Shown here: piece after piece, positions 41,844 through 60,637 of the stretch | How positions within the stretch are numbered: position 1 is the stretch's first letter | How the letters are laid out: each line of letters starts with the position of its first letter | From: Bradyrhizobium sp. WBOS07 | Lineage (GTDB): Bacteria; Pseudomonadota; Alphaproteobacteria; Rhizobiales; Xanthobacteraceae | Direction of reading: 5' to 3' | Length of the DNA: 64,000 nucleotides | Assembly (NCBI RefSeq): GCF_024585165.1 | Contig: NZ_CP029008.1 | Location: 4,092,001-4,156,000 of the forward strand | Program-made: the position numbers and the translations under genes | The notes under the pieces: generated by a model | Told to the model about the DNA's origin: nothing | The model's database searches: none | Seen by the model: the letters and a program-made list of their open reading frames with translations, nothing else

Positions 41844-41857
41844 GACAATGATTATTA

Positions 41858-41878
41858 AATGGATCACCCATTAAATGG
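41858..41878. promoter_or_regulatory. GntR/FCD operator, AATGG-N5-CCATT with extra half-site
   Basis: AATGG-ATCAC-CCATT at 41858-41872 repeats the core of the 24976-24992 operator with the same 5-bp spacer. A third AATGG follows at 41874-41878, giving CCATT-A-AATGG and room for two overlapping dimers. The site lies between the divergent GntR/FCD and acyl-CoA dehydrogenase genes. Confidence 0.68.
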
Positions 41879-41918
41879 AAGCTCTTTCTTTGGAGCTTTC
41901 TCCCAAGGAAACGCCGCG

Positions 41919-43058
41919 ATGAGTTTCACCGAAGAGCAAACCGCGTTCCGCGAGAGCATCCGCCGGATGGTGGCCAGACATGTGGCCCCGATCGCGGCGG
42001 AGATCGACGAGACTGATCGCTTCCCGACCGAACTGGTGAAACTGTTCGGCGAGATGGGATTGATGCAGCTCTGGGTACCCGAGCAGTACGGTGGCCCCAA
42101 TGGCAACCTCACCATGATGTGCATCGCGCGGGAGGAGATATCGAAGGTCTCTCCCGCCTGCGCGTCCATTGCCGGACTCAACACCATGTTCATCATGCCG
42201 CTGCTCCATTTCGGCTCGGAGGAGCAGCGCCGCAAGTTCCTGCCGATCATCGCCAAGGGCGGCGTGGTTACGGCAATCGCGATCTCCGAGCCGCAGGCCG
42301 GCTCCGATGTCACCGCCCTCAACACCCGCGCGCAGAAGGATGGCGACAGCTACATCCTGAACGGCCGGAAGCAGTGGTGCAGCTATGGCGTGGAGGCTGA
42401 GTTCATCGTGTTGATGGCCCGGACCGGCGACGGACCGGGCGCCGACGGCATCAGCGCCTTCATCATCGAGCCAAAGAAGATGCCGGGCGTGTCGTTCGGC
42501 CGACATGAGCGCAAGATGGGCTTTCGCGGCGCGCCCAATACGCCGATCTTCCTCGACAATGTGCGGGTGCCCGCCGAAAACCTCGTGGGGGAAGAGGGCA
42601 AGGGCTTTCGTGCCTCGATGCGGGCGCTCGATCTCAACCGCCCGACGATCGGCGCTCAGTCGGTCGGCCTGGCCCAAGGTGCGCTCGACGCCTGCATCGC
42701 CTACGCCAAGGAGCGGAAGCAGTTCAGAAAGTCGATCTCCGAATTCCAGGGCGTACAGTTCATGCTCGCAGACATGGCGATCCAGATCGAGGCCGCGCGT
42801 GCGCTCGTCTATGAATGCGCGCGGGCCGGCGATGAAGGCGACTGGAAGCGCCTGAATCTGCTCGCCAGCATGGCGAAATGCTTCGGCAGCGATGTGGCTA
42901 TGAAGGTGACGACCGACGCCGTCCAGATCTTCGGCGGCTATGGCTACACCATGGACTACCCCGTCGAGCGAATGATGCGCGACGCGAAGCTGACTCAGAT
43001 CTTCGAGGGAACCAACCAGATCCAGCGCGTGGTAATCGCCCGCGAGCTGTTGCGATAG
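41919..43058 (+). CDS. acyl-CoA dehydrogenase
   Basis: 379 residues from [13 protein letters not shown], preceded by AAGGAA. Canonical [24 protein letters not shown] (FAD/substrate loop), [18 protein letters not shown]-type helix region [23 protein letters not shown], the catalytic Glu region [41 protein letters not shown]. It alpha,beta-dehydrogenates an acyl-CoA. It is transcribed divergently from paralogue B of the GntR/FCD regulators. The next gene seems lost, since the downstream sequence is the edge of the RiPP island. Confidence 0.93.
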
Positions 43059-43090
43059 ATCTCAAGCAAATAGAACTCGGAGGAAACGTC

Positions 43091-43141
43091 GTGGCGTTTG
43101 GAGTTTCGGAAGCACGCCAAAGCCGGATACGAAATAGCTGA
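43091..43141 (+). pseudogene. possible truncated gene start at the island edge
   Basis: 33 nt after the acyl-CoA dehydrogenase a good ribosome site (CGGAGGAAA) is followed by GTG and VAFGVSEARQSRIRNS, then a stop. The strong initiation signal with only 16 codons suggests the 5' end of a former operon gene cut off by insertion of the following region. The rest of the gap to 43331 contains nothing recognisable. It may equally be a chance arrangement. Confidence 0.3.
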
Positions 43142-43331
43142 TCCGATATTCTCCGGCAGTCCGTTGGGAAAGCTCGGTACCAACACAACACTCTCCTCCT
43201 GGACTATCGCCAATCCGAGAATGCTCAGCTGCTCATCAGCGGCACCATCGCCATGTTTGCGCCATGCCCCCGAGAAGGCGGCCAGCATACGCCCATGTGG
43301 TCGGAAGGCGACCGGAGGACCAGCTACAAAG

Positions 43332-45602
43332 TTAGTGTCCGAAACCGCGCCTCTTGAACCAGCTCTTCACGTTACCGACCGTAACCGGCATCATCTCAGA
43401 TACATCAATCGTGAACTGGAACATTTTTGCTGCCCTTCCCTCGTCGTCCGGATCGAAGAACGTCAAGGACAACTCCCAGCAGTCGCTATGCATTCGACAT
43501 ACTGGGCTCTTGGTCACAACGATGGTGTCGAGCACACGCCCTTCATCGACTGCTGCAGCAAAACCCGATGCAGCCTGAAACACATTCGTTGCTGCGAAGT
43601 TCATTGCACGATCTCGGGACATCTGTCCCAGATTGTGCAACTCGAAGTACACACGGTTGAGGAAGTCGGTTACTGCATGATGGAGAAATGCGCGCGCCGG
43701 AGTAGCCTCTGCGCCGTGTATCCTGTTCACGGCGTCATCGACCAGCTCATTGATCTTCCAGCCGTAAATGCCGCGCAGATCAGTGACGGCTACGATCGGA
43801 ACCTCCGCCTTTGATTGAAGCCTTATCATTTCGCCGGTACGGCGGCCCGGAATGCTGATCCTCTCGATGAAATCGGATTGATCCGGTGTCAGGCTTTGAC
43901 CGGCCAAGAGTTGCAGAAAGGTCTCGTATATTGTGTCGGCATAAGGGCCTTCGGGAACGAGCCCATAGACCGGCGAGCCGCCGATCACCAAAGTCCATAT
44001 CAAACAATCCCGCTCCGTCCGGCGCCGATCGAGATATTCGATGAGGTGTTGCACCTCGTGCGGAGTCGGCCGGTCCGGGCCGGCACGCCCCGCCTCCCGG
44101 CCCATATATTGCTCGAACTCCTGCCGGCCGATCTCGGATCCGAAGTCGTAGGCCAAGCTGCCGAGCGCATAGACCAGGCCGGAGTGGGCGGTGCTTTGTT
44201 CGACGCCCCCCGTCGCGCCAACCGAAGCCGGTGCCGAAGCGGCAGAGTCCGCTACGGTCGGTGGCAAAGCCGATGGACTGAGCGTCTCCTCGACGGACGA
44301 TGATGCGGCACTCGTCATCACGCCGGTCTGGGGAACGGGTCCGACGCCGACGAGGAGACGGTCGTCTCTGCCGCTCGCACCAATCCCGCCGCGCGACGTG
44401 AACAGCGCCTCGAAGGCCGCAGGCAGATCCAGCACGCCTCGAAGACAACGTTCCGGCTCGTCGATGACGGCTGGATCACATAAGCGCGCCGTATCGAGCA
44501 GCGCCGCGCGGATCGCCGCTGCATCAATCTGCTGCCCGGCCTGCAACTGCTGGCTCATCAGCAAGGCAGCGATGCCGGTAACGATCGGCGCCGCCACGCT
44601 CGTCCCCATTTCGCGGATCGGCTCCTCCGTTCCCGGCTGTGCTCCGAGGATGTTTTCGCCCGGCGCCATGATGCCGTCTGCCGAATAATTGCCGCCCCAA
44701 TTGCTGAACTTGAACGGTTTGCCGTCGTCCTTCAGAGCGCCCACTGCGAGCGTCCCCGGGAGTGCGGCAGGAAAGCAGCGGCAATCGCCCGCGTTATTGC
44801 CGGCCGGCGCCACGATCAGGATGTTGTCGTCGAGACATCGGCGGACCGCGCGCGCCAGCAGGTCGTGTGGCGAATCCGTTTGAGTCGGCACGCACGCGGC
44901 GCAATGAATCACGTCAGCTCCCCAATCATGGGCCAGATCGAACGCCCGGGCGAGATTGAGCGGCGATATGAACTCCCCCGCCTCGCCAACCTGGTTCATC
45001 GGCACGACGATCACCCGACAAGCCGGCGCGATGCCCGGCGCCGGTGTGCCAGGCCGCCCTGCGATGACGCTGGTGATATGAGTGGCGTGACGGTCGCCCA
45101 GAATCCGAAGCAGGATGTCTGGCGAGAACTCGGTGAGAAGCCTTTCTTCCTTCTGCTTATCAGGAAGATCACTATTTGCGATCTCGCGGAACAGGGCGTG
45201 CTGCTCAGCCGTGATCGGGCTCGCCCCCTCATGCCAATACGGAAGCAGCATCGAGATCTGATCGCTGCGAAGACTTGACAATGTCAGATCGGGGTAGCCG
45301 TCGAGAACGACGATGGTGACTCGAGGGTCGCCCAACGTCCGCTTTCGGAGTTCGCCGAGACCGGGAATGCGGGCATCCAAATCGTGCGGCATGGTGACGG
45401 CACCGGCATCGACAATCAGGTTGGACGCAGTCACGCCTCTCGCGGTGGAGGGGCCGTCGACAAACCGCCCATGCAGGTCGGCAGCTCGCACCGATGGGGC
45501 GTTCAGAAGTCTCGAAGAATCCAGACTCATCGGGCTGCTCGCTCGTCTGAGATCATCCAAACGCTCCCTGCCGCTGCCGCTGCAATCGGCAAAATCGCGC
45601 AC
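43332..45602 (-). CDS. PatG-like subtilisin-type macrocyclase candidate (S8 domain plus PatA/PatG C-terminal domain)
   Basis: Up to 756 residues; the listed GTG is the longest option and an internal ATG at 45530 is possible. S8 triad: D101 (VVLDGYPD), H172 (RHATHITSV), S335 (MGTSVAAP), with oxyanion N269 (PAGNN). Asp and His are 71 residues apart, against 35 in the sister protein at 49004, because of a helical insertion around residues 115-165. As I recall, the PatG macrocyclase has D548/H618/S783, almost the same spacing. The C-terminal half (SGLVYALGSLAYDFGSEIGRQ, KSPVCRMHSDCWELSLTFFDP) is the PatA/PatG-associated domain. No N-terminal oxidase domain is present. It lies directly downstream of the precursor, so it probably cuts at AYSG and cyclises the core. 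Confidence 0.85.
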   Translation of the reverse strand: MRDFADCSGSGRERLDDLRRASSPMSLDSSRLLNAPSVRAADLHGRFVDGPSTARGVTASNLIVDAGAVTMPHDLDARIPGLGELRKRTLGDPRVTIVVLDGYPDLTLSSLRSDQISMLLPYWHEGASPITAEQHALFREIANSDLPDKQKEERLLTEFSPDILLRILGDRHATHITSVIAGRPGTPAPGIAPACRVIVVPMNQVGEAGEFISPLNLARAFDLAHDWGADVIHCAACVPTQTDSPHDLLARAVRRCLDDNILIVAPAGNNAGDCRCFPAALPGTLAVGALKDDGKPFKFSNWGGNYSADGIMAPGENILGAQPGTEEPIREMGTSVAAPIVTGIAALLMSQQLQAGQQIDAAAIRAALLDTARLCDPAVIDEPERCLRGVLDLPAAFEALFTSRGGIGASGRDDRLLVGVGPVPQTGVMTSAASSSVEETLSPSALPPTVADSAASAPASVGATGGVEQSTAHSGLVYALGSLAYDFGSEIGRQEFEQYMGREAGRAGPDRPTPHEVQHLIEYLDRRRTERDCLIWTLVIGGSPVYGLVPEGPYADTIYETFLQLLAGQSLTPDQSDFIERISIPGRRTGEMIRLQSKAEVPIVAVTDLRGIYGWKINELVDDAVNRIHGAEATPARAFLHHAVTDFLNRVYFELHNLGQMSRDRAMNFAATNVFQAASGFAAAVDEGRVLDTIVVTKSPVCRMHSDCWELSLTFFDPDDEGRAAKMFQFTIDVSEMMPVTVGNVKSWFKRRGFGH

Positions 45603-45744
45603 GGCAGATTGACGTTGTCAGAAGCTCGATCACTCGGTTTCCGGGATTGGGAGCGCTCGCCGCGCCGACGACGAGCGCTCCCCTTCAAATTCGACAATTC
45701 ACCAATGAACCGTCGCCGATCAGTTGGTGACTGTCGTCCGGGTT

Positions 45745-45766
45745 CTATTCGGCGCTACCCGAATAG
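45745..45766 (-). other. stem-loop covering the precursor's recognition signal and stop codon
   Basis: Perfect 8-bp inverted repeat (CTATTCGG / CCGAATAG) with a 6-nt loop. It spans the last codons AYSGSAE and the TAG stop of the precursor. No T-run follows. It may protect the short precursor mRNA or dampen read-through into the PatG-like gene 142 nt downstream. Confidence 0.5.
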
Positions 45767-45933
45767 GCGCAGGTGATCGTGACCGAGCCGACGCCGGGAA
45801 CACTGACGCTGACCGACGCGGTCACGCCAGCAAGGGTCTCCTCCGACAGCTCGGACAACAGGTCGGCCGAATTGCCGACGATGCTGCGAGAAACCGGCGC
45901 GATCTGCACGGGCTTCTTGTTCGTGATCTTCAT
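45745..45933 (-). CDS. cyanobactin-type RiPP precursor peptide (PatE-like)
   Basis: 62 residues, with an AAGGAG ribosome site 7 nt before the ATG. The leader (1-35) contains LLSELSEETLAG at 25-36, closely matching the LAELSEEAL helix of PatE that docks the heterocyclase. GVTAS (36-40) aligns with the PatE cleavage signal GLEAS. The core is V41-C55, VSVSVPGVGSVTITC. AYSG (56-59) aligns with the macrocyclisation signal AYDG, followed by SAE. Cys55 directly before AYSG is the place where cyanobactins carry a heterocycle or Pro. The gene lies between the YcaO gene and the PatG-like gene, as expected. One core only, longer than the usual 6-8 residues. Confidence 0.9.
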   Translation of the reverse strand: MKITNKKPVQIAPVSRSIVGNSADLLSELSEETLAGVTASVSVSVPGVGSVTITCAYSGSAE

Positions 45934-46054
45934 AGGTTGTCTCCTTCGATAGACGCATGCTCGACCACTCTGAGCGGGTCGCGTACTCCTCCTCCTTGCG
46001 GAAGAAGCCAGGCTCGCCGTGAGAGTCCGGTGCTAGCGGAACCCGCGGCGTCAA

Positions 46055-48415
46055 CTAAAACGGCATCGGCGTCGGGTTGAGCAGTGCTTCGGGGGTTGGT
46101 TCATTCAACCATGCGAGCCTGACAGGCACGTCGTAGAGACGCCCCGGCGCAAACCTTTTCCAGAAGAAGCGCATGCCCGGAACGACGACTTTGACGACGT
46201 TGAGCCCGATGTCGGGCCGCGTGAGGTCGAGAACCAGGACCTCGAGACCGATGCGCCGGCAAGCGGCAACGGCAATATCGACATCGTCGCGTATGTCGCC
46301 CGTCCAGGCTGACTTGAAATCAACGGCCTTCGTAGCCGGTGCCAGCCGGTCAGGGACAAGGTAAGGCTTGTCCTCTATTCGCGCGCCGAGCAGCCACTCG
46401 GCACCTTCGGCATCGATCAGCTCATCAGGAATCTTGTCCAACTCCAGGCCGACCTGACTCATCTCGGTCAGCGCTCTCGTCACGGCAACCGCTGGATCGA
46501 AATGGGCTCCGTAGCCGACAATCAGCCGTTCACTACTGCCCGTGATCCTTCGGGAGACCGCGGCCACGACCGGGATCCCGAGATCGGCAGTGAGATCGAG
46601 GAGCCACATCTCCCGGCCGACGTCCCGATAGTACTGCTCGAGATCGCGGAAGTACGGATCATCGAAGCTCGCCAGATCGACGGCCGGACGCCGCAAGCGG
46701 TTGTACCACCAAAGCGCCACGCAATCCCGCTCGACGACTTCCAGGAATCCCTGACAGATCGCTTCTTCCAGGTTGTTGCCGGCGGCGTTCCCGTTTGAAT
46801 CCGCCCGACAAAACTCATGATTCCTGGGGAGCGGGTACCATTGATAGCAAGTGGCCGTCGGCAGAAATTTCTGGTGTCCATGCGTGAGCGACCAAACCGG
46901 TGTCCAGTCGATCGGCCGGCCAGGGTCGAAGCGCATGGGAATCCAATTGTTGCCGACTGCCGAATTTGCATTCAACGTCTCGCGATCTGCGTACTGCGCC
47001 TCGCTGAATTGCAGACAGCATTCGGGACGGAGCGCGTTCTCGCCCATCTCGGCCAAAGTGGCGTTGATCCGCGGCTCGTCACCTTGATAGATGAACGAGT
47101 AGCGTTCGATCGCCTCGCAGAGACCGCTGGCGCGGGCTTGCTCGCTGGTCTTGCCTTTGCCGGAGCTGGTGTGTCGGAGGATCCGGCGCAGGCCGCGCAG
47201 AGACCCGACGGTGCCCCGGCTATGGCTCGATCTATAGGTGTGAACCAAATGGTTGGCGGGATCTGAGATCCTCGTCAATTCCGTGACGACCCCGGAGACA
47301 GGGCTGATCAGGTGCTGATAGCGGGCGACGGTCTGCTCTGGCGTCATGGAGCGGTGGCCGCTTTCCTCGACATACCGCTTCGGCGACGATTCCAGCATGA
47401 TTGGCTGAAAACCTCGACGAGCGATCAGGGCGGGATCGCCGCAACAGCTGCACTGGGGCCTATGCGGCAGTGAATGCGTTTGGCAGCCGTGACTCAGATG
47501 ATCCAGCGTGAGGATCTTTCCCGCCAGGGTCTCTGCCCTGACATTGCCGTCCTCGGGCCCGAGCGTCCGCCCTGCCAGCCATTTTGCAATCTCCGTCGTC
47601 GTCCAATGCAACGCCAGGTCGACAGTTGACGGAAGCGCAGGCCGTGACGTCGGCAGACAAATGGGAGCGTCGGCCTGGGCTTTTCTCTGCCGGTGTATGG
47701 ACTCCTTTACTTCGAGGTTGCCCCGCAAGCGGTGAGCCAGGCACTGCCAGCAGCCAGTTTCGCACGGCACGAAGATGGGACCGAGCCAGATGACGCTGCC
47801 GACAGGCTTGACGAGCATCCAGGGCCGTCGGGTCTTCAATGCAATCCGGTTTATCTCCTCGATCTCCGGACGCAGGTAGTCGTCGGTCACGACGACCTGA
47901 AGGTCGGGCAGAGTTGCCGCCGCATCGCCGCTTCTCTGAACTGGCCGGATATCAGCAACGAGGCCCGCCTCCGATATCAACGTCAGCAATCGCACTACGG
48001 AGACATTGCCGACGGCCATCAGCGAGATCCTGCTCTGCCGGAGCTGCATCACGACCCGGCCTGGATCGAAGCCAAGCTCGCTCCAGAATGCCGCGACTCC
48101 GGGAGCTGTTCCGTCGACGGCCTCGACGAGAAAGCCCAGCCTGCTCAGCCGCGCGATCACATGGTCTACAACGTCACTCGAAATTGTCCCAGACAAGAGC
48201 GAATGAATCTCGTCGATGGTGTATCGACCATCGAGCAACGGCACGATGGCGCAATACAATTGCCCTGTCAGGACGTGAGATGCGTGCTCGCTAAGCAAAT
48301 ATACATGCATCGGCTCGACGAGCTCGACACTGAAGTTCGGCTTGATGCACAGCCGCACCGGGCTCGCGCAACAACTCGCCGTATAGTCGACAACCTCAGC
48401 CTGCATGTCTCTCAT
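46055..48415 (-). CDS. YcaO cyclodehydratase with fused E1-like/leader-binding domain (PatD/TruD-like heterocyclase)
   Basis: 786 residues, about the size of PatD/TruD. The N-terminal part (residues about 20-330) is a ThiF/E1-like, leader-binding region with a tetra-Cys zinc site (CETGCWQC and QCSCCGDP). From about residue 370 a full YcaO domain follows: SGVVTELTRISD, TSEQARASGLCEAIERYSF with ATP/Mg-binding Glu residues, NGNAAGNNLEEAICQGFLEVVERD, and the Pro-rich C-terminus PTPEALLNPTPMPF typical of azoline-forming YcaO proteins. It would use ATP to turn Cys55 (and possibly Ser/Thr) of the precursor into thiazoline/oxazoline. It is encoded directly upstream of the precursor. Confidence 0.92.
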   Translation of the reverse strand: MRDMQAEVVDYTASCCASPVRLCIKPNFSVELVEPMHVYLLSEHASHVLTGQLYCAIVPLLDGRYTIDEIHSLLSGTISSDVVDHVIARLSRLGFLVEAVDGTAPGVAAFWSELGFDPGRVVMQLRQSRISLMAVGNVSVVRLLTLISEAGLVADIRPVQRSGDAAATLPDLQVVVTDDYLRPEIEEINRIALKTRRPWMLVKPVGSVIWLGPIFVPCETGCWQCLAHRLRGNLEVKESIHRQRKAQADAPICLPTSRPALPSTVDLALHWTTTEIAKWLAGRTLGPEDGNVRAETLAGKILTLDHLSHGCQTHSLPHRPQCSCCGDPALIARRGFQPIMLESSPKRYVEESGHRSMTPEQTVARYQHLISPVSGVVTELTRISDPANHLVHTYRSSHSRGTVGSLRGLRRILRHTSSGKGKTSEQARASGLCEAIERYSFIYQGDEPRINATLAEMGENALRPECCLQFSEAQYADRETLNANSAVGNNWIPMRFDPGRPIDWTPVWSLTHGHQKFLPTATCYQWYPLPRNHEFCRADSNGNAAGNNLEEAICQGFLEVVERDCVALWWYNRLRRPAVDLASFDDPYFRDLEQYYRDVGREMWLLDLTADLGIPVVAAVSRRITGSSERLIVGYGAHFDPAVAVTRALTEMSQVGLELDKIPDELIDAEGAEWLLGARIEDKPYLVPDRLAPATKAVDFKSAWTGDIRDDVDIAVAACRRIGLEVLVLDLTRPDIGLNVVKVVVPGMRFFWKRFAPGRLYDVPVRLAWLNEPTPEALLNPTPMPF

Positions 48416-48464
48416 CCGATCCCTTCGTCATCGAGCCAGGCGATTGCCCCCGTCCGCCAATCGC

Positions 48465-48659
48465 CTATGCCCAAATCCTTCCTCGCAGGTACGATTTGTC
48501 GGCATCTTCCGCTTCGGCCGACGCTCCTTTCGCCTTCCTGTCGACCAGCCCCGTCAGTCCTTGGAGATAGCTGCGATAGCTCATGCCCATCGCTCTTGCC
48601 TCGTCCCAAGTGATCGACCCGCTGGGGCGCTTTTTCTCCGGTCGCGGCTTCTTCGTCAT
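48465..48659 (-). CDS. small basic protein in the PatC position of the RiPP operon
   Basis: 64 residues from ATG at 48659, with GAGGAG at good spacing; a TTG two codons upstream is too close to it. The protein starts MTKKPRPEKKRPSG and continues with TWDEARAMGMSYRSYLQGL, a short helical core, then an acidic/basic tail. It lies 49 nt before the heterocyclase. Cyanobactin operons carry short conserved proteins of unknown role (PatB, PatC) at this place; size and context fit PatC, but I cannot confirm homology without a profile search. Confidence 0.65.
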   Translation of the reverse strand: MTKKPRPEKKRPSGSITWDEARAMGMSYRSYLQGLTGLVDRKAKGASAEAEDADKSYLRGRIWA

Positions 48660-48769
48660 TGTCAACAGCTCCTCGTTCGCTGCGAAATACTCGTCGTGAG
48701 CTCGTTCGGCCTCGCGCGATGGTCGCCCGGCACTGCCGGCCGATCATCGCGTCCCGCGTCATGATGTTG

Positions 48770-48985
48770 TCAAAACCTCCGGTGGACGAATGCCGAACTT
48801 ATGACCTGCTCAGGTGCAGCCCATTCAAACGGAGCCGGATCGTTATAATTCGCGCCGTGGATCAGCGAGATCGCCAGAGATATCAAGTCCTCGCGCCTTC
48901 CATGCACCACATCGACACACGTCGATGGGACTACGGAATGCGGACGCTTCACCGGCCTTGAAAGGATCGGATTGATGTTGACCAT
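48770..48985 (-). CDS. small protein in the PatB position of the RiPP operon
   Basis: 71 residues with an excellent GGGAGG ribosome site. It contains SRPVKRPHSVVPSTCVDVVHGR, then REDLISLAISLIHGANYNDP, and ends with VISSAFVHRRF. No signal peptide or catalytic motif is recognisable. It starts 18 nt after the PatA-like protease gene and precedes the PatC-like gene. Short conserved accessory proteins occur at this place in cyanobactin clusters, but the function is unknown and the family link is by context only. Confidence 0.65.
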   Translation of the reverse strand: MVNINPILSRPVKRPHSVVPSTCVDVVHGRREDLISLAISLIHGANYNDPAPFEWAAPEQVISSAFVHRRF

Positions 48986-49003
48986 GCGTGTGTCCTCCCG
49001 GAA

Positions 49004-51109
49004 TCAATTGGGTTGGGTCCACCACCGGACCTCGCCCATGGTGACGGGTATGAGGTCGCTCACATCGACCGTATAGCGGAATATCCTCTTGGCGCGTTTG
49101 TTGTTCTCCGGATCAAAGAACTTCAACTTCACATCCCAACAATCGCTGTCCATGCGACAGAACGGGCTCTTGTCGACCGCAATTTCATCGAGCTGCATTC
49201 CAGCTACGAGCGAGTCGCTGAACGTCGTAGCGACCTGGAATGCGTCGGTGACGGCGAAGTTCAGCGCGCGGTCGCGGGATGTTTTTCCGAGATTCCTCAA
49301 GTCGTAGTAAACACGGTTGAGAAATGCTTCCAGCGACGAACGGATGCTCTCGGCCTGATCCGACTCCACCCCATCGCTGGCAAGCGCATTCAATGCGTTA
49401 TCGATCAGTGCGTTGGTCTTCCAGCCATACATTCCACGCGTATTGACCGGCTGGATCACCGGCACGACCTGCCCCGAGAAAAGCTTGACGGTGCGTTTCG
49501 TCAGCACTCCTGGAATGGCTACCCGCTGAACGAAATCCGCGTCCGACTCCAACTTGATCTCGCCGGCCAGCATGGTGAGGAGAACTTCATAAACGTCGCG
49601 AGCAAATGCTCCGACCGGCTCGATGGCATACACCGGCGTCAGCTCGATGTTCAAAGTCCAGATGAGCGACTTGGCTTCCGCAAGATGGGTTGTCAGATAG
49701 TCGACCATCTGGCGGGCGTCGTAAGGATTCGCAGGCACCTGGTTGACGGGCGGCATCAGCTGCTTGAAGCTGTCCCGTCTCGCCTCCGTCCCAAAATCAT
49801 AGCCAAGCACGCCGAGTGCATAGACCAGACCGGCAGGTTCATCCATGTCCGGTATGGAGCTCGGCACCACGGAGCTGAGTGCCATGCCGGGAGCGGCGCG
49901 TGCTGCAGCAGGCCGGGGGCCGGCGCCCTCATCCGGCATCCGGCTGCCGCCGATCGCCATCGCAGCCAGCGACTGTATAGCGCCTTGCGACGACTCCAAA
50001 CGCGGATCCGCCGCATTCGGCTCCGCCATTTCGGCCTGTGAGACCGCGTTCGGCTCCTTGAGCTCGTTGCAGGCGCACTGAGGGCTGATCGCCGTATTCG
50101 CCGTCATCGTATTTCTGGTCATTTGTCCTATACTCCGTTTCAAGAGTTCGAAAGCACCTGGTAAGTTCAACCTCCCCGCCAAGCATCGGTCAGACTCGTC
50201 CGGGCCCAAGCCGTCGCAAGGCAACGCACTGTCGAGCAGCAGCTGGCGAACGAAATGCGGATCAGGTGTTTCGCCTCGATCGACCTGATGGCTCAACAAC
50301 AGCGCGGCAGCCGAGGCCGCGATGGGCGCCGCAAAGCTGGTGCCGCTGCGACGCGTCACGCCGCCGCCCGGCTTGGCGCCAAGGATGTCCTGGCCTGGGG
50401 CCATCAAGCCTCTGGAGCGATAGGCTCCGCTCCAGTTGCTGAAATTTATCGGTCGGCCCTGGCGATCCAGCGCGCCGACGGGCAACACCATCGGGAGCGC
50501 CGCCGGAACGTGCAGACACTCGCACCCGTCGTTGCCGGCCGCCGCCACCACAAGGACATTGCGATCGGCGCAGAGGCGCACTGCGTTCTCCAGCCAGGCG
50601 TCGGCCTCCCCAACGTCCGTCAGCTGACCGCCGCTGATATTGATGATGTGCGCGCCATGATCGACAGCCAGCTCGATGGCACGGCCCAGATCAAGCTGCG
50701 AGGCGCTCCGGCGATCTTCGAAAAAGACCGGAATAATGAGTCCACTGCAGCCCGACGCGAGCCCTTCGACTTCGCTGCCGGGTTGACCGAAAATGACGCT
50801 CGTAATGTGAGTCCCATGCGCGGCCATCGGTCCCAACGACTTTTGATCCGCAGGGAGCATGCTCGGCAGCAGAGCAAGATGAGCACCTCGAAAGCATGGA
50901 TGTTCAAGATCGACACGGCCGTCCAACACGGCGATACGAACGCCCGGCGAGCCTCTACCGGCATCAAATCGTTGCACATTGTTAGGACTGCCCTCAGGCG
51001 TCCACAGCACGCTGCGCGTCTCCACACCCGACGATGACGAGCCTGCGGCGCCAAACCCGGACGGCCGCTCAACATGCCTGCCAGCAACTAAGGCAGATCG
51101 ACTTGCCAT
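49004..51109 (-). CDS. PatA-like subtilisin-type leader protease
   Basis: 701 residues. S8 triad D63 (AVLDGRVD), H98 (AAHGTHITSV), S258 (SGTSFAAP) with oxyanion N193 (AAGND). Asp to His is 35 residues, the compact spacing of an ordinary subtilase and of PatA. After a low-complexity linker (about 330-430), the C-terminal domain (AGLVYALGVLGYDFGTEARRD, NTRGMYGWKTNALIDNALN, KSPFCRMDSDCWDVKLKFFDP) is clearly homologous to that of the 43332 protein. It would cleave the leader at GVTAS. It is the first gene of the RiPP operon, about 120 nt below a phased-repeat promoter. Frame analysis shows no earlier start codon before an upstream stop. Confidence 0.87.
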   Translation of the reverse strand: MASRSALVAGRHVERPSGFGAAGSSSSGVETRSVLWTPEGSPNNVQRFDAGRGSPGVRIAVLDGRVDLEHPCFRGAHLALLPSMLPADQKSLGPMAAHGTHITSVIFGQPGSEVEGLASGCSGLIIPVFFEDRRSASQLDLGRAIELAVDHGAHIINISGGQLTDVGEADAWLENAVRLCADRNVLVVAAAGNDGCECLHVPAALPMVLPVGALDRQGRPINFSNWSGAYRSRGLMAPGQDILGAKPGGGVTRRSGTSFAAPIAASAAALLLSHQVDRGETPDPHFVRQLLLDSALPCDGLGPDESDRCLAGRLNLPGAFELLKRSIGQMTRNTMTANTAISPQCACNELKEPNAVSQAEMAEPNAADPRLESSQGAIQSLAAMAIGGSRMPDEGAGPRPAAARAAPGMALSSVVPSSIPDMDEPAGLVYALGVLGYDFGTEARRDSFKQLMPPVNQVPANPYDARQMVDYLTTHLAEAKSLIWTLNIELTPVYAIEPVGAFARDVYEVLLTMLAGEIKLESDADFVQRVAIPGVLTKRTVKLFSGQVVPVIQPVNTRGMYGWKTNALIDNALNALASDGVESDQAESIRSSLEAFLNRVYYDLRNLGKTSRDRALNFAVTDAFQVATTFSDSLVAGMQLDEIAVDKSPFCRMDSDCWDVKLKFFDPENNKRAKRIFRYTVDVSDLIPVTMGEVRWWTQPN

Positions 51110-51838
51110 CTCGTTCGCTTCCTTCGAAGACGCACCAGAAATCTCAGTTTCGACGTCGGCCGCTCCAGCTCTTCAAGCTGCGTTAGAGTTGCCGATCCCA
51201 GCGACGACGTCCGCTGGTGAACAAGATCTCAGTTCGCAATAATATCTGTTGAACGATTTCTGTCGCGTGAGATAAGCGTGATTTTTCTTATCGCGGATAC
51301 GACCTTCCTTCCCGCGAACTTCGAGCGCCGAATGCATGACGTCATTGATAGATGCGCGGCACGATCGCGTGTCGACGCTGAGTCCGCGATCAATCAATGA
51401 CTCGCTATAGGGGTGAGTGCGCGTCGTGATCGCAGCGTCCCGCCGCAGATCGAGATGGAAATGCGCAACGCCCCGTCTTCGACCGAGCACTGCGGGCCGC
51501 TCGGCTAACCAGCGCTGACGTCATGAGGCTGGAATGGGACTGTCGATCCAACGGCCGGTGCAGACAGCTCGTGGCGCGCTTGAAAGCTGGCCAGAGCCGC
51601 CGAGGCGCGATGAGCTCAGGACGAACGTTGTCGCGCCTTGGCTTGGCGTATAAGCACAACTATTTCGAATAATCGCTACGCACCTTGCACGACCGGAGTC
51701 TTTCGGGGCCGGGATCTTTATCCTTGATATCCAATCCCAGGCCGAAGGCGTGTACCGTGTCGGCCGAAGAGCGCGCTCAGACCAATGTAGCCCAGCGCGC
51801 CGCATTTCGGAAGGATCTCGATCCTGTCGACGTTCAGG
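51110..51838. other. long intergenic region upstream of the RiPP operon
   Basis: About 730 bases. The only recognisable element is the phased-repeat promoter at 51239-51281. Several frames longer than 60 codons are open, but none has a ribosome site or protein-like composition. I looked for a second precursor with an LSELSEE-like leader and saw none. Confidence 0.5.
51239..51281 (-). promoter_or_regulatory. phased direct-repeat promoter of the RiPP operon
   Basis: On the minus strand: TCACG-CTTATC-TCACG-CGACA, a 16-nt spacer, then TATTAT as -10. The two TCACG half-sites are 11 bp apart (one helical turn), and GCGACA stands where a -35 would be. The same architecture is repeated at 52078-52120 and 53483-53525. 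SARP-type activators bind such phased repeats overlapping the -35. Confidence 0.72.
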
Positions 51839-52045
51839 TCAGAAGATCTGACCGACCAGATCGTCGAGCACACTGCCAAGATGGCTTCCAAGATCACTGA
51901 AGAAGCCCTGTTGATGGATCGACCCATCCAACTGTGCCGCGACGTCAGCCGTGCCTGAACCTGCCGGATCGTGCCCAATCTCTCGCGACGACAAGCTCTT
52001 GTTGAGAATGCTGCGACCGATCGGTGCCGATTGAACTGGAAACAT
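51839..52045 (-). CDS. small protein of unknown function under the island's shared promoter
   Basis: 68 residues from ATG at 52045, with a perfect AGGAGG ribosome site. It begins MFPVQSAPIGRSILNKSLSS and ends LGSHLGSVLDDLVGQIF, a probable amphipathic C-terminal helix. There is no Cys. A phased-repeat promoter with TATCAT as -10 ends about 33 nt upstream, so transcription and translation signals are both strong. It could be a regulator, immunity peptide or second secreted peptide; nothing in the sequence decides. Confidence 0.65.
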   Translation of the reverse strand: MFPVQSAPIGRSILNKSLSSREIGHDPAGSGTADVAAQLDGSIHQQGFFSDLGSHLGSVLDDLVGQIF

Positions 52046-52077
52046 CACTTGGTCCTCCTGATGAGAATGATGGAGCC

Positions 52078-52120
52078 ATGATAGCCACGGCGCCTGCTTT
52101 GTCGCGTGAGTTAAGCGTGA
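52078..52120 (-). promoter_or_regulatory. phased direct-repeat promoter of the 68-residue gene
   Basis: On the minus strand: TCACG-CTTAAC-TCACG-CGACA, 16 nt, then TATCAT. Spacing is identical to the copies at 51239 and 53483. The predicted transcript start is about 25 nt before the ATG at 52045. Confidence 0.72.
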
Positions 52121-52208
52121 ACTGGACTTTGAATGTCTGCACTGCGCTGAGATTGCCGCCATCTGTGCTTGAGACGGACAGCTGCGCGACGATTGATTTT
52201 GCCGGCGG

Positions 52209-53309
52209 TTAAAGTCTTTGCAGCGCCGGCGCCGCTACGATCGATAGCGCGGCCAGGATCTCCTGGAGAGACGCAAGGACGCCCGCCACCTCCGCTGCCG
52301 GCACCAAGACTTCGCTCAGCGCAATCAACAGCGCCGCGACGCCGGCCGCGATCCGGACGCGATTGAAGTACCTGACATAGTCGCCCTTCACACATAGAAT
52401 GTAGAAGATCAGGCCTGGAGCCTGCCGGCGCAGGCTGAGGATCAGATCGAGCTTTTCGCCTTCAGGCGTGAGGAAGCGCCCCAGCACAACATCGGTCGGC
52501 ACATAATTCTCACCGGGCTTGTAAGGCAGACCACGCGCCGCATAGGCTGGAATGATGCTATTCAGCTTGATCCACGCCTCGCCCGCACTCCAGACGCTGG
52601 CCGGTTTGATTTCGTACCATTCCTTGATGGCACGGTGCGAGATGATGTCCGGACGCCGCATGCTGGCCAACTCGTCAATGCGCGCTGGCGGAACTGTCGG
52701 ATTTCTCGGCTTAAGGAACGCCGTGTAGTTCAGCGGTCCTGCCTCGTCCAGAAAGTCGTCGGCGGTGCACGGCCCCGTCCTCTCGCAGAAATTCTCGAAA
52801 ACGAACGGCTCGATGAATCGACCGAGCGCCTGCGCGATGAAGCGATCAAACAGAAATGAGGCGCGAAAACAGGCCCTGTCGCCAAATTCCCATTGGTCCA
52901 GCACTTTCTGACCGATCGACATATCCCCTAACGTGTTCTCGACGAAACCCGCGTGGACAGGATCGAGAACGAGGGTCTTTGTGTCCAGCGTCGCGACGTC
53001 GATCAGTCCCGCTCCATCCCCACCTTCGAGCCATGTGATCTCGCGGTCCAGCCGCTTGATCGTCCCAACCCCGACCACGGGGTCGTTCGGAAACAGACCG
53101 CGGTCGGTCTTGAAAGCGACTACGGCATTTCCCGTTTCCTGACCGAAAGCTCCATCGACGCCCGCAGCTTGCAAGGGAAATCCGATGGCGAGAAGCGCTT
53201 GCTGAACCAGCGCCACGCTATCGGACACCTCAGGCGCCAGCATGCGACGCCCGCCGGACGCGATCAACTCGAGGTCTGCGTGTCCAGAAAACAACTGAGA
53301 AACTAACAT
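52209..53309 (-). CDS. peptidoglycan-binding-domain protein with a PD-(D/E)XK-like motif and hydrophobic C-terminus
   Basis: 366 residues, with GGGAG 9 nt before the ATG. Residues about 30-95 form a PG_binding_1 repeat (VALVQQALLAIGFPLQAAGVDGAFGQETGNAVVAFKTDRGL). The middle part has RRPDIISHRAIKEWYEIKPAS, i.e. P-D-x(n)-E-x-K, as in PD-(D/E)XK nuclease folds, followed by LDLILSLRR. The C-terminus (about 315-366) is strongly hydrophobic (IAAGVAALLIALSEVLVPAAEVAGVLASL) and could form a membrane hairpin. The domain mix resembles secreted effectors or toxins, but none is recognised. Its promoter has the island's shared element, tying it to the RiPP cluster. Confidence 0.6.
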   Translation of the reverse strand: MLVSQLFSGHADLELIASGGRRMLAPEVSDSVALVQQALLAIGFPLQAAGVDGAFGQETGNAVVAFKTDRGLFPNDPVVGVGTIKRLDREITWLEGGDGAGLIDVATLDTKTLVLDPVHAGFVENTLGDMSIGQKVLDQWEFGDRACFRASFLFDRFIAQALGRFIEPFVFENFCERTGPCTADDFLDEAGPLNYTAFLKPRNPTVPPARIDELASMRRPDIISHRAIKEWYEIKPASVWSAGEAWIKLNSIIPAYAARGLPYKPGENYVPTDVVLGRFLTPEGEKLDLILSLRRQAPGLIFYILCVKGDYVRYFNRVRIAAGVAALLIALSEVLVPAAEVAGVLASLQEILAALSIVAAPALQRL

Positions 53310-53687
53310 GCCTGTTCTCCCTGGCTCTGAGCGTGAAGCGCAAAGGCGCTGTCGACACAGATTCCCGGATATCGCGCTCTGAGGTCGGGAGCCGAACGGC
53401 CCGAGACAGGGATTCCGTTGATCGTGCCGGCGGACGCGAACAGCGCGCTCTCACCTTTATTGGTCGAGCGATGTCGATACGAAGAATATCGGCGGCTTGC
53501 TTTTTGTCGCGTGAGATAAACGTGAGTGCATCCCTCGGGCGCGGCCGACGCGCTCAACTCGCTGCGTCGCTCCTTCGCGTTCGACGGCAGTAATTGACGG
53601 AAACTGAGCACCCAGCCGGCTCAGGCATCATGCCGGATCCGGTTGCAGAGCAGCTCGAGCCCCCCCGTTAGTTCGCTCGGCGTCCGG
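53310..53687. other. intergenic region upstream of the PG-binding protein
   Basis: 378 bases. They hold the third phased-repeat promoter (53483-53525) and a leader of about 165 nt before the ATG at 53309. No convincing gene or RNA structure was recognised in the leader. Confidence 0.5.
53483..53525 (-). promoter_or_regulatory. phased direct-repeat promoter of the PG-binding protein gene
   Basis: On the minus strand: TCACG-TTTATC-TCACG-CGACA, 16 nt, then TATTCT. It differs from the copy at 51239-51281 at a single base in the 21-bp element. Confidence 0.72.
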
Positions 53688-53900
53688 CTAGAGATCATGC
53701 TCGCTAATGCGGTCAACCAACTGGATCAGCCAGAAGACTGTCTGCCGCTCGTCCGGGGAAAGGTCGGCCCGATCCAACATCTGGGTGGCCGTTTGCCGAA
53801 AATCGGCCCAGCGGGAGTAGAACTCCACCACGTCACGAGGAGCCTCCAGGCCGGATCGCCGACCTTTTTCGTCCTCACCCTCGCCGCCCGATTTGGCCAT
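53688..53900 (-). CDS. small helical protein of unknown function
   Basis: 70 residues from ATG at 53900 (MAKSGGEGEDEKGRRSG); an ATG at 53921 in the same frame is possible. The body EAPRDVVEFYSRWADFRQTATQMLDRADLSPDERQTVFWLIQLVDRI reads as two amphipathic helices joined by a DLSPDER turn, which looks protein-like. No good ribosome site is seen. A weak relative of the phased repeat lies at 53930-53950. It is divergent from the SARP-like regulator. Confidence 0.5.
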   Translation of the reverse strand: MAKSGGEGEDEKGRRSGLEAPRDVVEFYSRWADFRQTATQMLDRADLSPDERQTVFWLIQLVDRISEHDL

Positions 53901-53929
53901 ACAGAACAGTAATGCGAACATCCAAAGCT

Positions 53930-53950
53930 GGCGGCGTGAAAAATGTGTGA
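53930..53950 (-). promoter_or_regulatory. degenerate phased repeat between the small gene and the regulator
   Basis: On the minus strand TCACA-CATTTT-TCACG: the same 11-bp phasing with one altered base in the half-sites. The sequence 16 nt further is ATTACT rather than TATNNT. It could be a weak operator for control of the regulator gene; the evidence is thin. Confidence 0.35.
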
Positions 53951-54000
53951 GGACACTTGGATATGCGCTTGATACAGTGTTAGGTTGTATTCATTGCGGA

Positions 54001-55677
54001 ATGACAAGTTGTCTCACCTATGGGATTTCTGTGGTGGAGATCAAGCGCATTGAAATCAATCTGTTTGGAGCCTGCGTGGTCCGGTCCACACAGGCGGGTG
54101 GATTTGAGATAACCGGAGCCAAGCACAAGGCCCTTTTCGCCCTCCTGGCGACCGCACCATTTGGGCGTCGGACCAGGCCGTTCCTTCAGGACACACTATG
54201 GGGCACGGCTTGCTATGATACGGGCAGACAGAGCCTGAGACGGGCCTTATCCGATATCAGGCAGATCATGGGAGACTGCTTCACAGACGTTCTGAGCAGC
54301 ACGAATTCCGACCTCACGCTCGACCTCGCCCGCGTCTCCTTCATCGGACGGCCGGGATCTGGAGAGCTGCTCGAAGGGATCAACCTCAAGGAGGACGGCT
54401 TCAACAGCTGGCTTGGCGCGATGCGCCAAAATCCTCAGCAAATTTATTCGCTGTACGGTTGCTCTACGCAGTCGCTCGCCGCGCCGATGCTGCCATTCGT
54501 CGCAGTGCTGCCGTTCCGGACGATCGGTGGAACACCCGAGCATGCCGTTCTCGGCGACTGGCTGGCCGAGGAAGTGAGTCGCTCGCTTTCACGATCGAAC
54601 CTGACCTCCGTGATCTCCCATTGGTCCAGCAGGGCGCTCGATCACCGAGCCGTGGACATCGCAACAGTTCGCGAGCAGCTTGCCGTCGACTATTGCTTGG
54701 TCGGCACCCTTCGCGTTGCCTCACGCGAGATCATACTCGACGCAGACTTGGTTGACACGATATCGGGCCGCATCCTGTGGACCCGGCAATTCGCGGGACC
54801 GATCGGCCGCTTCATGGATAGGTGCGCGGAAGGCGTAGCGGAGATCGTGCGCGCCATTGGCGCCACGGTGGCAGACGATGCGATCTCGCATGTGTCTGAT
54901 CGTCGACTCTCCGACGTGGAAGATCATCGGCTCCTGGTGGCGGGAGTGGGGCTCATGCATCGCCCGGCACTTCGCGATTTTGCAAGGTCGCGCGAACTTA
55001 TCGAGGAGACGTTGAAGCGCGCTCCCAATGCCGCTGAAGCCCACGCCTGGTTCGGGAAGTGGCACGCATTGAGCGTCTTCAATGGCTGGAGCACCGATCC
55101 GGCCAAGGATACGCGGATCGCCCTCGACAGCACCGCGCGCGCCCTCGACATCAATCCGGACAACGCATTTTGCCTAACGATCGATGGTTTCGCACACAAC
55201 AATCTGCTGCGCCGTATGGATATCGCCAGTGCGCGCTACGACGAAGCGCTGCGCCGCAACCCGAATGAAGCGCTGGCTTGGCTCCTGAAGGGCGCGCTGA
55301 ACGCATTCCAAGACCATGGACCTACGGCGGTCACGGCAGCCGAAAGAGCGCGGCGCCTGTCTCCGATCGATCCCTTTCGATACTACTACGAATCGCTCAG
55401 CGCGACAGCGCTTCTGTCCGCCGGACGATACGCCGAAGCGCTGGATTTCGCCGAGTGCTCGCTGCAGAGACATCACCGCCACATTTCCACTTTGCGCACG
55501 AAAATCGTGGCTTTGCACAATCTGGGTCGAATCGAGGACGCTAAGCGGGCGGCCTCGGACCTCTTGACTCGTCAACCACACTTCACGGTCTCCGCTTATC
55601 GCCGGGATCATCCGGCTGCGGACTACAACTTCGGCAAGCGCGCGGCCGAAGCGCTGAGCGCTGCCGGGATTCCTTGA
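54001..55677 (+). CDS. SARP-like transcriptional activator (OmpR-type wHTH, TolB/cyclase-associated domain, TPRs)
   Basis: About 558 residues from MTSCLTYGISVVEIKR; the frame opens at 53893, and a GTG at 54031 is another option. Residues about 15-110 form an OmpR/SARP wHTH (IEINLFGACVVRS, ITGAKHKALFALLATAPFGRRT, GRQSLRRALSDIRQIMG). Then a TolB-like domain (FVAVLPFRTIGGTPEHAVLGDWLAEEVSRSLSR, VDYCLVGTLRV, ILWTRQFAG), and TPRs in the C-terminal half (PNAAEAHAWFGKWHAL, ALRRNPNEALAWLLKGALNAF, SAGRYAEALDFAECSL). It is divergent from the RiPP side and 18 nt upstream of the haloperoxidase gene. It is the best candidate to bind the phased TCACG repeats. Confidence 0.85.
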   Translation: MTSCLTYGISVVEIKRIEINLFGACVVRSTQAGGFEITGAKHKALFALLATAPFGRRTRPFLQDTLWGTACYDTGRQSLRRALSDIRQIMGDCFTDVLSSTNSDLTLDLARVSFIGRPGSGELLEGINLKEDGFNSWLGAMRQNPQQIYSLYGCSTQSLAAPMLPFVAVLPFRTIGGTPEHAVLGDWLAEEVSRSLSRSNLTSVISHWSSRALDHRAVDIATVREQLAVDYCLVGTLRVASREIILDADLVDTISGRILWTRQFAGPIGRFMDRCAEGVAEIVRAIGATVADDAISHVSDRRLSDVEDHRLLVAGVGLMHRPALRDFARSRELIEETLKRAPNAAEAHAWFGKWHALSVFNGWSTDPAKDTRIALDSTARALDINPDNAFCLTIDGFAHNNLLRRMDIASARYDEALRRNPNEALAWLLKGALNAFQDHGPTAVTAAERARRLSPIDPFRYYYESLSATALLSAGRYAEALDFAECSLQRHHRHISTLRTKIVALHNLGRIEDAKRAASDLLTRQPHFTVSAYRRDHPAADYNFGKRAAEALSAAGIP

Positions 55678-55695
55678 TGAAGAAAGGAGCGTCTG

Positions 55696-56841
55696 ATGTC
55701 GATCGTAGGCGGAACCGGCGGCACTGGTGGGACCGGGGGGACGGGGGGCACGGGAGGTACAGGCGGAACCGGAGGCGGGAATCTCAATTTTACCGGGTTG
55801 GGCTCCTTCCTCGGTGCCGGCGCCGACCCCGTCTACGATCCGATCCTTGTGCAAGGTCTGCAGATTGCCGAGCAGGCAATCACCCACGTCGCCAGCCGCG
55901 ACCCGGCGGGGGACATCGAGGAACTCGCCTTCTCGTCAGCCGGCAACATGACCTTGTGGGCCGACTGGGTGAGAGCCTCGCTTTACATGACCGAGTTCCT
56001 AAGGGAACTTGATTGGCGCCAGGACGACAGGACCGTCACCCTAAGCTATGGCCGTCGTCGACATCACGGTGACAGCGGTGACCATGATCGCGGCGAGCGG
56101 AGCTTCTACGCCGTGCGGCGTCCGGACAGCGATTGTTTCAAGGAGCAGTTGAAATTCATGAGGTCCTACCTGGACCAGCGGCCCGACCGAACGCCTGAGA
56201 TTATCACCCAGCTCGGCTTTCCCACACCGTATTTTGCGATGCTGCTCGGCCTTCAAGTCGGCGCCAACACTCATACGTTCGAGCTGATCACGATCACTCA
56301 GGTGCTTGCCGCCCACGTTGCGATGGTTGTGAAGCACCATCTGGCCTGTCGGCGCCCCGATCGCGCCGGCGCGCAGGTCATGCCAATGATCCCGACCCCG
56401 GCTCACGGCACCTTCCCGAGCGCACACGCCACCGAAGCTTTCGCAGTCGCGACCGTCCTCAACAGATTTGTCGAACGCCAGCAACAGCATTATCCCGACG
56501 TCAAGGCGCGCCAAGCGCTGATCACCAAGCTGGCGGAGCGCATCGCCGTCAATCGGACCGTGGCCGGGGTACATTTTCCGATCGATACTTGGGCAGGAGC
56601 AATCCTGGGCCGCGCCATCGGTCAGATCGTGCTGGCCAAATGCCGCGCCGGCACCACGGTGAATGGTTATAGGTATTCCGCCAAAGGCGACCTCGACTTC
56701 TTCGTCAAGGAGTTCGCGAAGGGCGACAACCGGGGCTTCGGCGTGACCGAGACCGGATCTATCGATGTCGGATCGTCCGAGCTTTTCGAATGGCTTTGGA
56801 ACAAGGCATCCGGTGAGTTTGACCTCGTCCAGGAGGCATGA
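55696..56841 (+). CDS. vanadium-dependent haloperoxidase / PAP2-family protein with GGT-repeat N-terminus
   Basis: 381 residues, with AAAGGAG before the ATG. After MSIV come seven Gly-Gly-Thr repeats plus GGG (residues 5-28), a flexible tail. The vanadate/phosphate-binding triad of motifs is intact: K213-x6-R220-P221 (KHHLACRRP), P241-S-A-H244 and R287-x5-H293-x3-D297 (RTVAGVHFPID). There is no signal peptide or membrane span, and the helical core is large, which favours a haloperoxidase over a lipid phosphatase. Its TGA lies inside ATGATC, overlapping the next ATG by 4 nt, so it is coupled to the subtilase gene. It might modify a peptide product; this is not shown. Confidence 0.85.
   Translation: MSIVGGTGGTGGTGGTGGTGGTGGTGGGNLNFTGLGSFLGAGADPVYDPILVQGLQIAEQAITHVASRDPAGDIEELAFSSAGNMTLWADWVRASLYMTEFLRELDWRQDDRTVTLSYGRRRHHGDSGDHDRGERSFYAVRRPDSDCFKEQLKFMRSYLDQRPDRTPEIITQLGFPTPYFAMLLGLQVGANTHTFELITITQVLAAHVAMVVKHHLACRRPDRAGAQVMPMIPTPAHGTFPSAHATEAFAVATVLNRFVERQQQHYPDVKARQALITKLAERIAVNRTVAGVHFPIDTWAGAILGRAIGQIVLAKCRAGTTVNGYRYSAKGDLDFFVKEFAKGDNRGFGVTETGSIDVGSSELFEWLWNKASGEFDLVQEA
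55708..55779 (+). repeat. (GGN-GGN-ACN) tandem repeat coding for (GGT)7-GGG
   Basis: Eight 9-nt units. Third positions vary from unit to unit (ACC, ACT, ACC, ACG, ACG, ACA, ACC) while the amino acids stay constant. This indicates selection at the protein level rather than fresh slippage. Confidence 0.85.
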
Positions 56842-59054: not shown

Positions 59055-59146
59055 CTTGATTTCACTTGGCAGAATTGGTCATTCTGGCTCGCCAATGTGG
59101 TCATGATGCGAAAAGCGGTGGTTCGGCCCCCAACCGGGCCAAAAAG

Positions 59147-60550: not shown

Positions 60551-60637
60551 CTGACAGCCCTGTTGTTGTCGGAAAACGGCCCTGCCCGCCGGCGCCGCTG
60601 GCGGCCCGGTTTCGTCGCTGCGCGGCTCGGAATGCGC

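Follow-up and report, generated by a model that had tools for sequence, protein, structure and literature searches.

According to a 2015 review, cyanobactin clusters had been identified in cyanobacteria only, and active clusters always encode the A, G, E, B and C genes (PMC4663559). PatA-like enzymes cleave the precursor peptide after G(L/V)E(A/P)S, whereas the cut made by PatG-like enzymes lies in front of AYDG (PMC10885120). The nearest published cases are as follows: a 2021 paper on the alphaproteobacterium Roseomonas oryzae gives a cyanobactin peptidase gene and thinks a new cyanobactin-like peptide likely (PMC8776678), cyanobactin-like genes are mentioned for Saccharopolyspora (PMC10145562), and one cyanobactin cluster was counted in a soil metagenome library (PMC7750434). 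Within the accessible text of the open literature, a scope that leaves aside subscription papers and automatic annotations, we found no complete alphaproteobacterial cyanobactin cluster described; several PatG-related database proteins are already labelled cyanobactin. Here we analyse a 64,000-nucleotide stretch of DNA from Bradyrhizobium sp. WBOS07 (NZ_CP029008.1, 4,092,001 to 4,156,000; the whole stretch is called the window, and coordinates refer to it). It very probably carries a horizontally acquired, apparently intact cyanobactin-type cluster for a ribosomally synthesised and post-translationally modified peptide (RiPP), making a 15-residue, unprenylated thiazoline macrocycle. The cluster is new as to host and details, not as to kind.

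Enzymes of the cluster

Six intact genes lie on the minus strand from 51109 to 43332, arranged as A, B, a putative C, D, E and G (Table 1). Both proteases match NCBIfam TIGR03895 far above its cut-off of 421 bits (832 for PatA, 656 for PatG) and contain Peptidase_S8, PatG_D and PatG_C domains according to Pfam and NCBIfam profiles. Among solved structures the best match of the first is PatA (3zxx, 401 bits) and that of the second the PatG macrocyclase (4aks, 406 bits), with a further 287 bits between the PatG C-terminal domain and 4uvq. In the alignment, PatG keeps and PatA lacks the insert in front of the catalytic histidine by which macrocyclases are distinguished; the role of this insert is described in PMC4663559. 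The residues H172, N269 and S335 are invariant across the 29 aligned PatGs; D101 is an aspartate in the window protein, a glutamate in two others and missing from one row that is cut short. The PatG start is probably at 45530, judging from sequence, because a 95%-identical protein of 732 residues (P0014) begins there.

The YcaO protein, a heterocyclase of a type that is optional in cyanobactin pathways, exceeds the cut-offs of TIGR03604 (271 against 219 bits) and TIGR03882 (123 against 36.9 bits). It matches LynD (4v1t) with 998 bits over residues 21-786, including the Cys-rich and C-terminal PTPMPF regions, and TruD with 971 bits over nearly the whole length. A preliminary description, made from the DNA letters alone, had proposed a PatA-like subtilase, a PatD/TruD-like YcaO enzyme, a precursor and a PatG-like subtilase in this order on one strand of a proteobacterial genome. 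The profile placement that it named as a test, together with searches of solved structures, puts the three enzymes with PatA, the PatG macrocyclase and LynD/TruD, and the closest relative of PatG, 95% identical, comes from Bradyrhizobium sp. WBOS4, so that these proposals hold.

The same description placed two small proteins at the PatB and PatC positions. The first is confirmed, as PatB scores 83 bits against TIGR04220 (cut-off 55). For PatC it gave no coordinates, and the larger open reading frame (ORF) at that place, 48412-48762, is probably spurious: it matches no Pfam or NCBIfam family and has no counterpart among the 13 loci compared. A 64-residue ORF in a different frame is conserved there instead, with 19.9 bits against the PatC model TIGR04447, under the cut-off of 30. 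In each of five such ORFs, this one included, it is the C-terminal end that aligns to the model, with scores of 13.5-22.8 bits that all stay below the cut-off, and the ORFs terminate in RGRIWA in four of five clusters and in RGRIWS in the Roseobacter one.

Precursor and predicted product

The precursor matches Pfam DUF5837 with 40.4 bits (cut-off 25, E 3.7e-10), and its segments follow in the order LLSELSEETL, GVTAS, VSVSVPGVGSVTITC and AYSGSAE. Six relatives from jgi and ena sources, 65-85% identical to it, keep the leader and the signals around variable cores; the signal before the core is GVTAS or GVTPS, and the one after it is AYSG, or SYSG in two of them. The PatE-like leader and recognition signals read from the DNA in the preliminary description are thus borne out by a profile above cut-off and by an arrangement kept in seven aligned precursors. 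Precursor ORFs in related clusters, the second test that it named, are present in all four such clusters found. Their cores are VSVTITCVSATVTC in Bradyrhizobium LTSP885, ATVECIRICFC in Bradyrhizobium DOA9, where the signals are the most divergent (GVVAS and AASG), VSVTLPCGISATVTC in Sphingomonas ERG5 and ISVTLPCGISGTAGC in a Roseobacter metagenome-assembled genome (MAG). Core length is 11-15 residues across the related clusters, and cysteine is the last residue, directly before the final signal, in all nine distinct cores listed.

The following pathway, with its sequence of reactions, its precise cleavage positions and its product, we infer by analogy with the known one. The YcaO enzyme would bind the precursor at LLSELSEETL and convert the single core cysteine to a thiazoline. 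PatA would then cut after GVTAS, freeing the N-terminus of VSVSVPGVGSVTITC, and PatG would cut before AYSG and, shielded by its insert, join the ends to a 15-residue ring. This ring is expected to be unprenylated and its thiazoline unoxidised, because the host genome has no PatF match and no match to a SagB-type oxidase. For cyclo(VSVSVPGVGSVTITC) with one thiazoline the computed [M+H]+ is 1368.719.

The PatF model TIGR04445 matched none of five proteobacterial genomes (the window host, LTSP885, DOA9, ERG5 and the Roseobacter MAG). It gave 352 bits for the cyanobacterial control Anabaena azotica, and among 14 stock controls it matched Lactococcus lactis alone, under the cut-off. The SagB-type oxidase profile found no match in the host genome, the Roseobacter MAG or ERG5. 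The PatG of DOA9 (1179 residues) carries a fused oxidase (SagB match of 151 bits), and LTSP885 has a separate SagB-type match of 184 bits on a different contig from its cluster. The preliminary description had seen no PatF and no oxidase domain and expected a thiazoline macrocycle without prenylation; the lack of PatF and SagB-type matches in the host genome agrees with this.

Several points weigh against a functional macrocycle pathway. The NCBIfam leader model TIGR03678 gives the precursor 23.2 bits, below its cut-off of 39.6, and TIGR04447 likewise stays below its own. Compared to the patellamide signals, recognition sequence (RS) II has threonine for glutamate and RSIII serine for aspartate, and DOA9 even has AASG. 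According to the 2015 review, the F gene is seemingly present in every cyanobactin pathway except that of trichamide and is not among the always-encoded genes, and PatF is essential for patellamide synthesis (PMC4663559). Because of this near-universal occurrence and of the requirement in patellamide synthesis, a pathway without a recognised F gene may require a further component.

The AYSG signal in place of AYDG could also mean changed substrate handling, and linear cyanobactins exist (PMC4663559, PMC10885120). Could the cluster then be cyanobactin-derived and yield a linear or merely cleaved peptide, with PatG a protease and not a macrocyclase? We consider this quite improbable, as the insert is kept in five of five alphaproteobacterial PatGs and the terminal cysteine of the core in nine of nine distinct cores. 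The cyanobactin-type cluster at this locus is genuine and probably functional.

A second leader motif was noticed. A QxAPVxR-like motif occurs in precursors near PatA/PatG genes, with or without YcaO, at the loci examined, and PatB N-termini have an xPVxRP motif that resembles it. LxELSEE is found in at least one precursor at each of the 22 loci with YcaO and listed precursors, and it is absent at 8 of 11 loci that lack YcaO in the DNA examined; the three where it is present are L040, L042 and L064, and in the last two the examined DNA ends close to the precursor. Precursors were picked with a loose filter that selected on the QxAPVxR-like motif, the loci were chosen by PatG similarity, and the filter's regular expression missed L061, where both YcaO and precursor are present. 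From these sequences we take as a lead only that LxELSEE may accompany YcaO and that QxAPVxR may not depend on it. Binding of QxAPVxR by the C-terminal domain of PatA or PatG was considered and is weakened by a nuclear magnetic resonance study in which the PatG C-terminal domain did not bind PatE' (PMC4259220); the motif is kept as an observation. Five actinomycete loci (L071, L075, L080, L081 and L083) have two PatA/PatG proteases and precursor-like ORFs and no YcaO in the DNA examined, and in L083 three apparent cores end in proline, with FAGVEQS between them.

Related clusters and the genomic island

Genes A, B, D, E and G in the same order, together with a PatC-like ORF, are found in Bradyrhizobium LTSP885 and DOA9, Sphingomonas ERG5 and the Roseobacter MAG. 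A scan of species genomes for two short peptide patterns picked out 61 loci, among which four are close named Pseudomonadota (L035, L036, L063 and L068) and four others no more than weak subtilase matches. The most specific marker is PatB. Within the genus it turned up in 3 of 265 genomes (the window host, LTSP885 and DOA9), and elsewhere in 1 of 385 sampled from the class and in 1 of 398 sampled from the phylum, in both cases the window's own; these counts are lower bounds, with at most 22 (genus) or 15 (class, phylum) first-look candidates scored per genome. TIGR03895 matches at 1e-60 occur in 32 of the 265 genus genomes, but as a count of clusters this number is too high, since 28 of the 32 have a single match. 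Those single-match genomes (L006-L034 and L100-L102, from the window's genus) mostly show open frames of 820-930 residues with about 460-480 bits. In six loci of this other kind, L098-L103, including the 20-kb loci L100-L102, no YcaO, PatB or PatE was found. At L099, in the window's genus, a lone PatA-like protease (9610-11616) is followed at 11963 by a 56-residue peptide that starts with MRLPTQAAPVTR and has four cysteines near its C-terminus; this is possibly another RiPP type. A tblastn search of PatG against 72,556 plasmid records (E 1e-30) returned five matches, all cyanobacterial.

Each of the PatA, PatG and YcaO phylogenies has a 100/100 branch with all five alphaproteobacterial rows to one side, set apart from the cyanobacterial ones. 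The protease tree holds 40 of 96 matched protease ORFs after length and score filters, and the YcaO tree all 23 matches. DOA9 falls outside the starred group formed by the window, LTSP885, Sphingomonas and Roseobacter in the PatG and YcaO trees, and a constraint that unites the three Bradyrhizobium rows is rejected in the case of YcaO (approximately unbiased test, p-AU 0.0028) and not in that of PatG (0.121). The placement of DOA9 and the rejected constraint favour transfer between families, without proving it.

The family is known chiefly from cyanobacteria, and contaminating cyanobacterial DNA in the assembly would account for its presence here. The data refute this, and we give it practically no credence: the host genome is one 6.73-Mb contig with a completeness of 99.92%, identity between its PatG and those of named cyanobacteria reaches only about 50%, the three enzymes group with alphaproteobacterial ones as described above, GC content is near 0.6, and the identical precursor is present on 14 contigs.

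The cluster lies in a segment that is absent from relatives. The relative G021 is homologous in nucleotide sequence up to 43098 and the relative G085 from 59151 on; past each border, 19.5 kb of these relatives was compared and showed no other match to the window. Neither G021 nor G085 is among the 32 genomes with a TIGR03895 match, and neither has the subtilase-like protein of the island. No single relative was found in which the two flanks adjoin each other; in G117 about 50 kb lies between them and their order differs. Each border therefore has the support of one genome. GC content at third codon positions (GC3) is 0.59-0.74 in the island genes, except for 0.84 in PatE, and 0.77-0.84 in five flanking genes. 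No Rfam family was found within 41000-61000 of the window.

A 21-bp operator-like repeat is specific to the island. The pattern TCACGYTTAWCTCACGCGACA, which was written from the three island repeats, occurs three times in the window against a chance expectation of 0.01, and no further copy is found in the whole 6.7-Mb genome when 3 mismatches are allowed; the reversed-pattern control gives 0. All three copies are on one strand, each before a minus-strand island ORF, and contain a heptamer direct repeat with an 11-bp period (TCACGCT-TATC-TCACGCG). A -10-like hexamer follows after a 16-nt spacer in two of the three copies, in a promoter scan that overall gave no excess of sites over shuffles (3 versus 2.6). 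SARP regulators use heptamer direct repeats of 11-bp period at -35. We hypothesize a link of this type between the repeat and the TPR protein encoded nearby, which none of the SARP, BTAD and winged-helix profiles matched; the island genes might then respond to an island-specific operator, possibly via this protein.

One copy precedes a small candidate ORF. Its start, MFPVQSAPIGRSI, matches the precursor leader PVQIAPVSRSI at 8 of 11 positions, and it contains neither cysteine nor AYSG. A phmmer search covering 34,178 frame segments, taken from the window and the loci from L035 onward, returned no relative, only copies of the same place (L124-L126 overlap).

Counterparts of the TPR, PAP2 and subtilase-like proteins adjoin the Roseobacter cluster in rearranged order (L117, 603-5699), with identities of 23% over 507, 41% over 186 and 27% over 568 residues, respectively. 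The Roseobacter counterpart of the third subtilase-like protein scores 34.6 bits against Peptidase_S8, above the cut-off of 21.8, and a search of eight genomes found this protein in two, that of the window and the Roseobacter MAG. With 657 relatives, several named Bradyrhizobium among the best 120 of them, the TPR protein is not island-specific. In the PAP2 protein the motif RP...PSAH...R-x5-H-x3-D resembles the vanadium haloperoxidase/PAP2 active site. Could the island be a self-contained transferable unit of soil Alphaproteobacteria for peptide-based defence or signalling? Such a unit would have its own operator and make two peptides that bear leaders, one being the macrocycle and the other encoded by 51839-52045. 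The PAP2 protein and the third subtilase-like one would contribute an undescribed step in processing or immunity. The QxAPVxR-like motif, seen at the N-termini of PatE, PatB and the small ORF, would be a class-wide docking tag apart from the YcaO element. We regard this picture as speculative and, taken as a whole, rather doubtful.

The cluster is rare among Bradyrhizobium genomes (3 of 265, judged by PatB), and its island borders suggest a gain; the genes might be intact by chance or through recent arrival, a silent or decaying acquisition without product. This is unlikely in our view. All ORFs are intact with their catalytic residues, the operator-like sites occur nowhere else in the genome, and the core is unchanged in two of the six precursor relatives, P0008 and P0009, despite their diverged leaders, which indicates selection.

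Table 1. Features of the locus, with coordinates in the window
Feature	Coordinates	Strand	Basis
PatA-type N-terminal subtilase, PatG_D/PatG_C domains, without macrocyclisation insert	49004..51109	-	TIGR03895, 3zxx, alignment
PatB homologue, 71 aa	48770..48985	-	TIGR04220
Putative PatC homologue, 64 aa, C-terminus RGRIWA	48465..48659	-	conserved ending; weak TIGR04447
PatD/TruD/LynD-type fused cyclodehydratase, 786 aa, C-terminus NPTPMPF as in LynD	46055..48415	-	TIGR03604, TIGR03882, 4v1t
PatE-type precursor, 62 aa, single core	45745..45933	-	Pfam DUF5837, relatives, counterparts in 4 clusters
RSI-like heterocyclase recognition element LLSELSEETL	45832..45861	-	L25, L26, E28-L34 invariant in 7 precursors
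RSII-like PatA cleavage signal GVTAS	45814..45828	-	GVTAS or GVTPS in 7 precursors
Core peptide VSVSVPGVGSVTITC	45769..45813	-	position between conserved signals
RSIII-like macrocyclase signal AYSG (AYDG in PatE)	45757..45768	-	Y57-S58-G59 invariant in 7 precursors
PatG-type subtilase/macrocyclase, macrocyclisation insert, PatG_D/PatG_C, without oxidase domain	43332..45602	-	TIGR03895, 4aks, 4uvq
Island, 16.05-kb segment absent from relatives	43099..59150	.	borders G021, G085; GC3
Operator-like copy 1, 21 bp, 152 nt upstream of patA start	51261..51281	-	repeat pattern
Small candidate ORF MFPVQSAPIGRSI..., 68 aa, PatE-like N-terminal motif, AGGAGG ribosome site; tentative	51839..52045	-	N-terminal motif, ribosome site
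Operator-like copy 2, 21 bp, 55 nt upstream of small ORF	52100..52120	-	repeat pattern
366-aa protein, PG_binding_1 domain; pathway link by location and operator only	52209..53309	-	Pfam 24.4 bits (cut-off 23)
Operator-like copy 3, 21 bp, 196 nt upstream of PG-binding gene	53505..53525	-	repeat pattern
TPR protein, resembling a regulator by inspection only; the longest ORF begins at 53893	54031..55677	+	TPR matches, relatives, Roseobacter counterpart
PAP2-superfamily protein, glycine-rich N-terminus	55696..56841	+	PAP2 52 bits; Roseobacter counterpart
Third, divergent subtilase-like protein	56838..59054	+	Peptidase_S8 20.2 bits, just below cut-off 21.8

Comparison with known systems

A patellamide-type assembly line, macrocyclase included, exists in several alphaproteobacterial families and has probably moved between them. 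It offers a natural version without recognisable PatF, with longer cores and altered signals, and its macrocyclases are candidates for making larger rings. Provided that the Bradyrhizobium and Sphingomonas hosts prove cultivable and genetically tractable, the part that cyanobactins play in ecology would become testable by gene knockout in heterotrophs.

The other four alphaproteobacterial clusters resemble that of the window in the gene order (A, B, putative C, D, E, G), in similar signals and in the missing PatF match. DOA9 differs by its oxidase-fused PatG, the window PatG being oxidase-less, and by GVVAS and AASG; LTSP885 differs by its separate SagB-type match. The cores differ among all these clusters. 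The Actinomycetota clusters, such as those of Nonomuraea pusilla (L083) and Microtetraspora fusca (L075), share two proteases, a PatB-like ORF and precursor-like ORFs bearing QxAPVxR with the window but lack LxELSEE, and in L083, L075, L080 and L081 the cores end in proline before FAG or FAD.

The closest described systems are the Prochloron pat and tru pathways, which have the A, B, D, E and G genes, probably C, a TruD-type YcaO enzyme and a PatG with insert and C-terminal domain in common with the window. In contrast to them, the window has no PatF match, a PatG without oxidase, GVTAS and AYSG as signals, an alphaproteobacterial host and an island with other accessory genes. To our knowledge the oxidase is likewise absent from TruG. 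In the strict sense a cyanobactin has a cyanobacterial producer; the host here is a Bradyrhizobium. The likeness of the YcaO enzyme to LynD is nearly full-length, but the core of the window precursor holds many serine and threonine residues, and in its tolerance for these the enzyme may differ. Trunkamide-type cores have 7-8 residues. Patellamide cores have 8 residues (PMC4259220), whereas the window precursor carries one core of 15.

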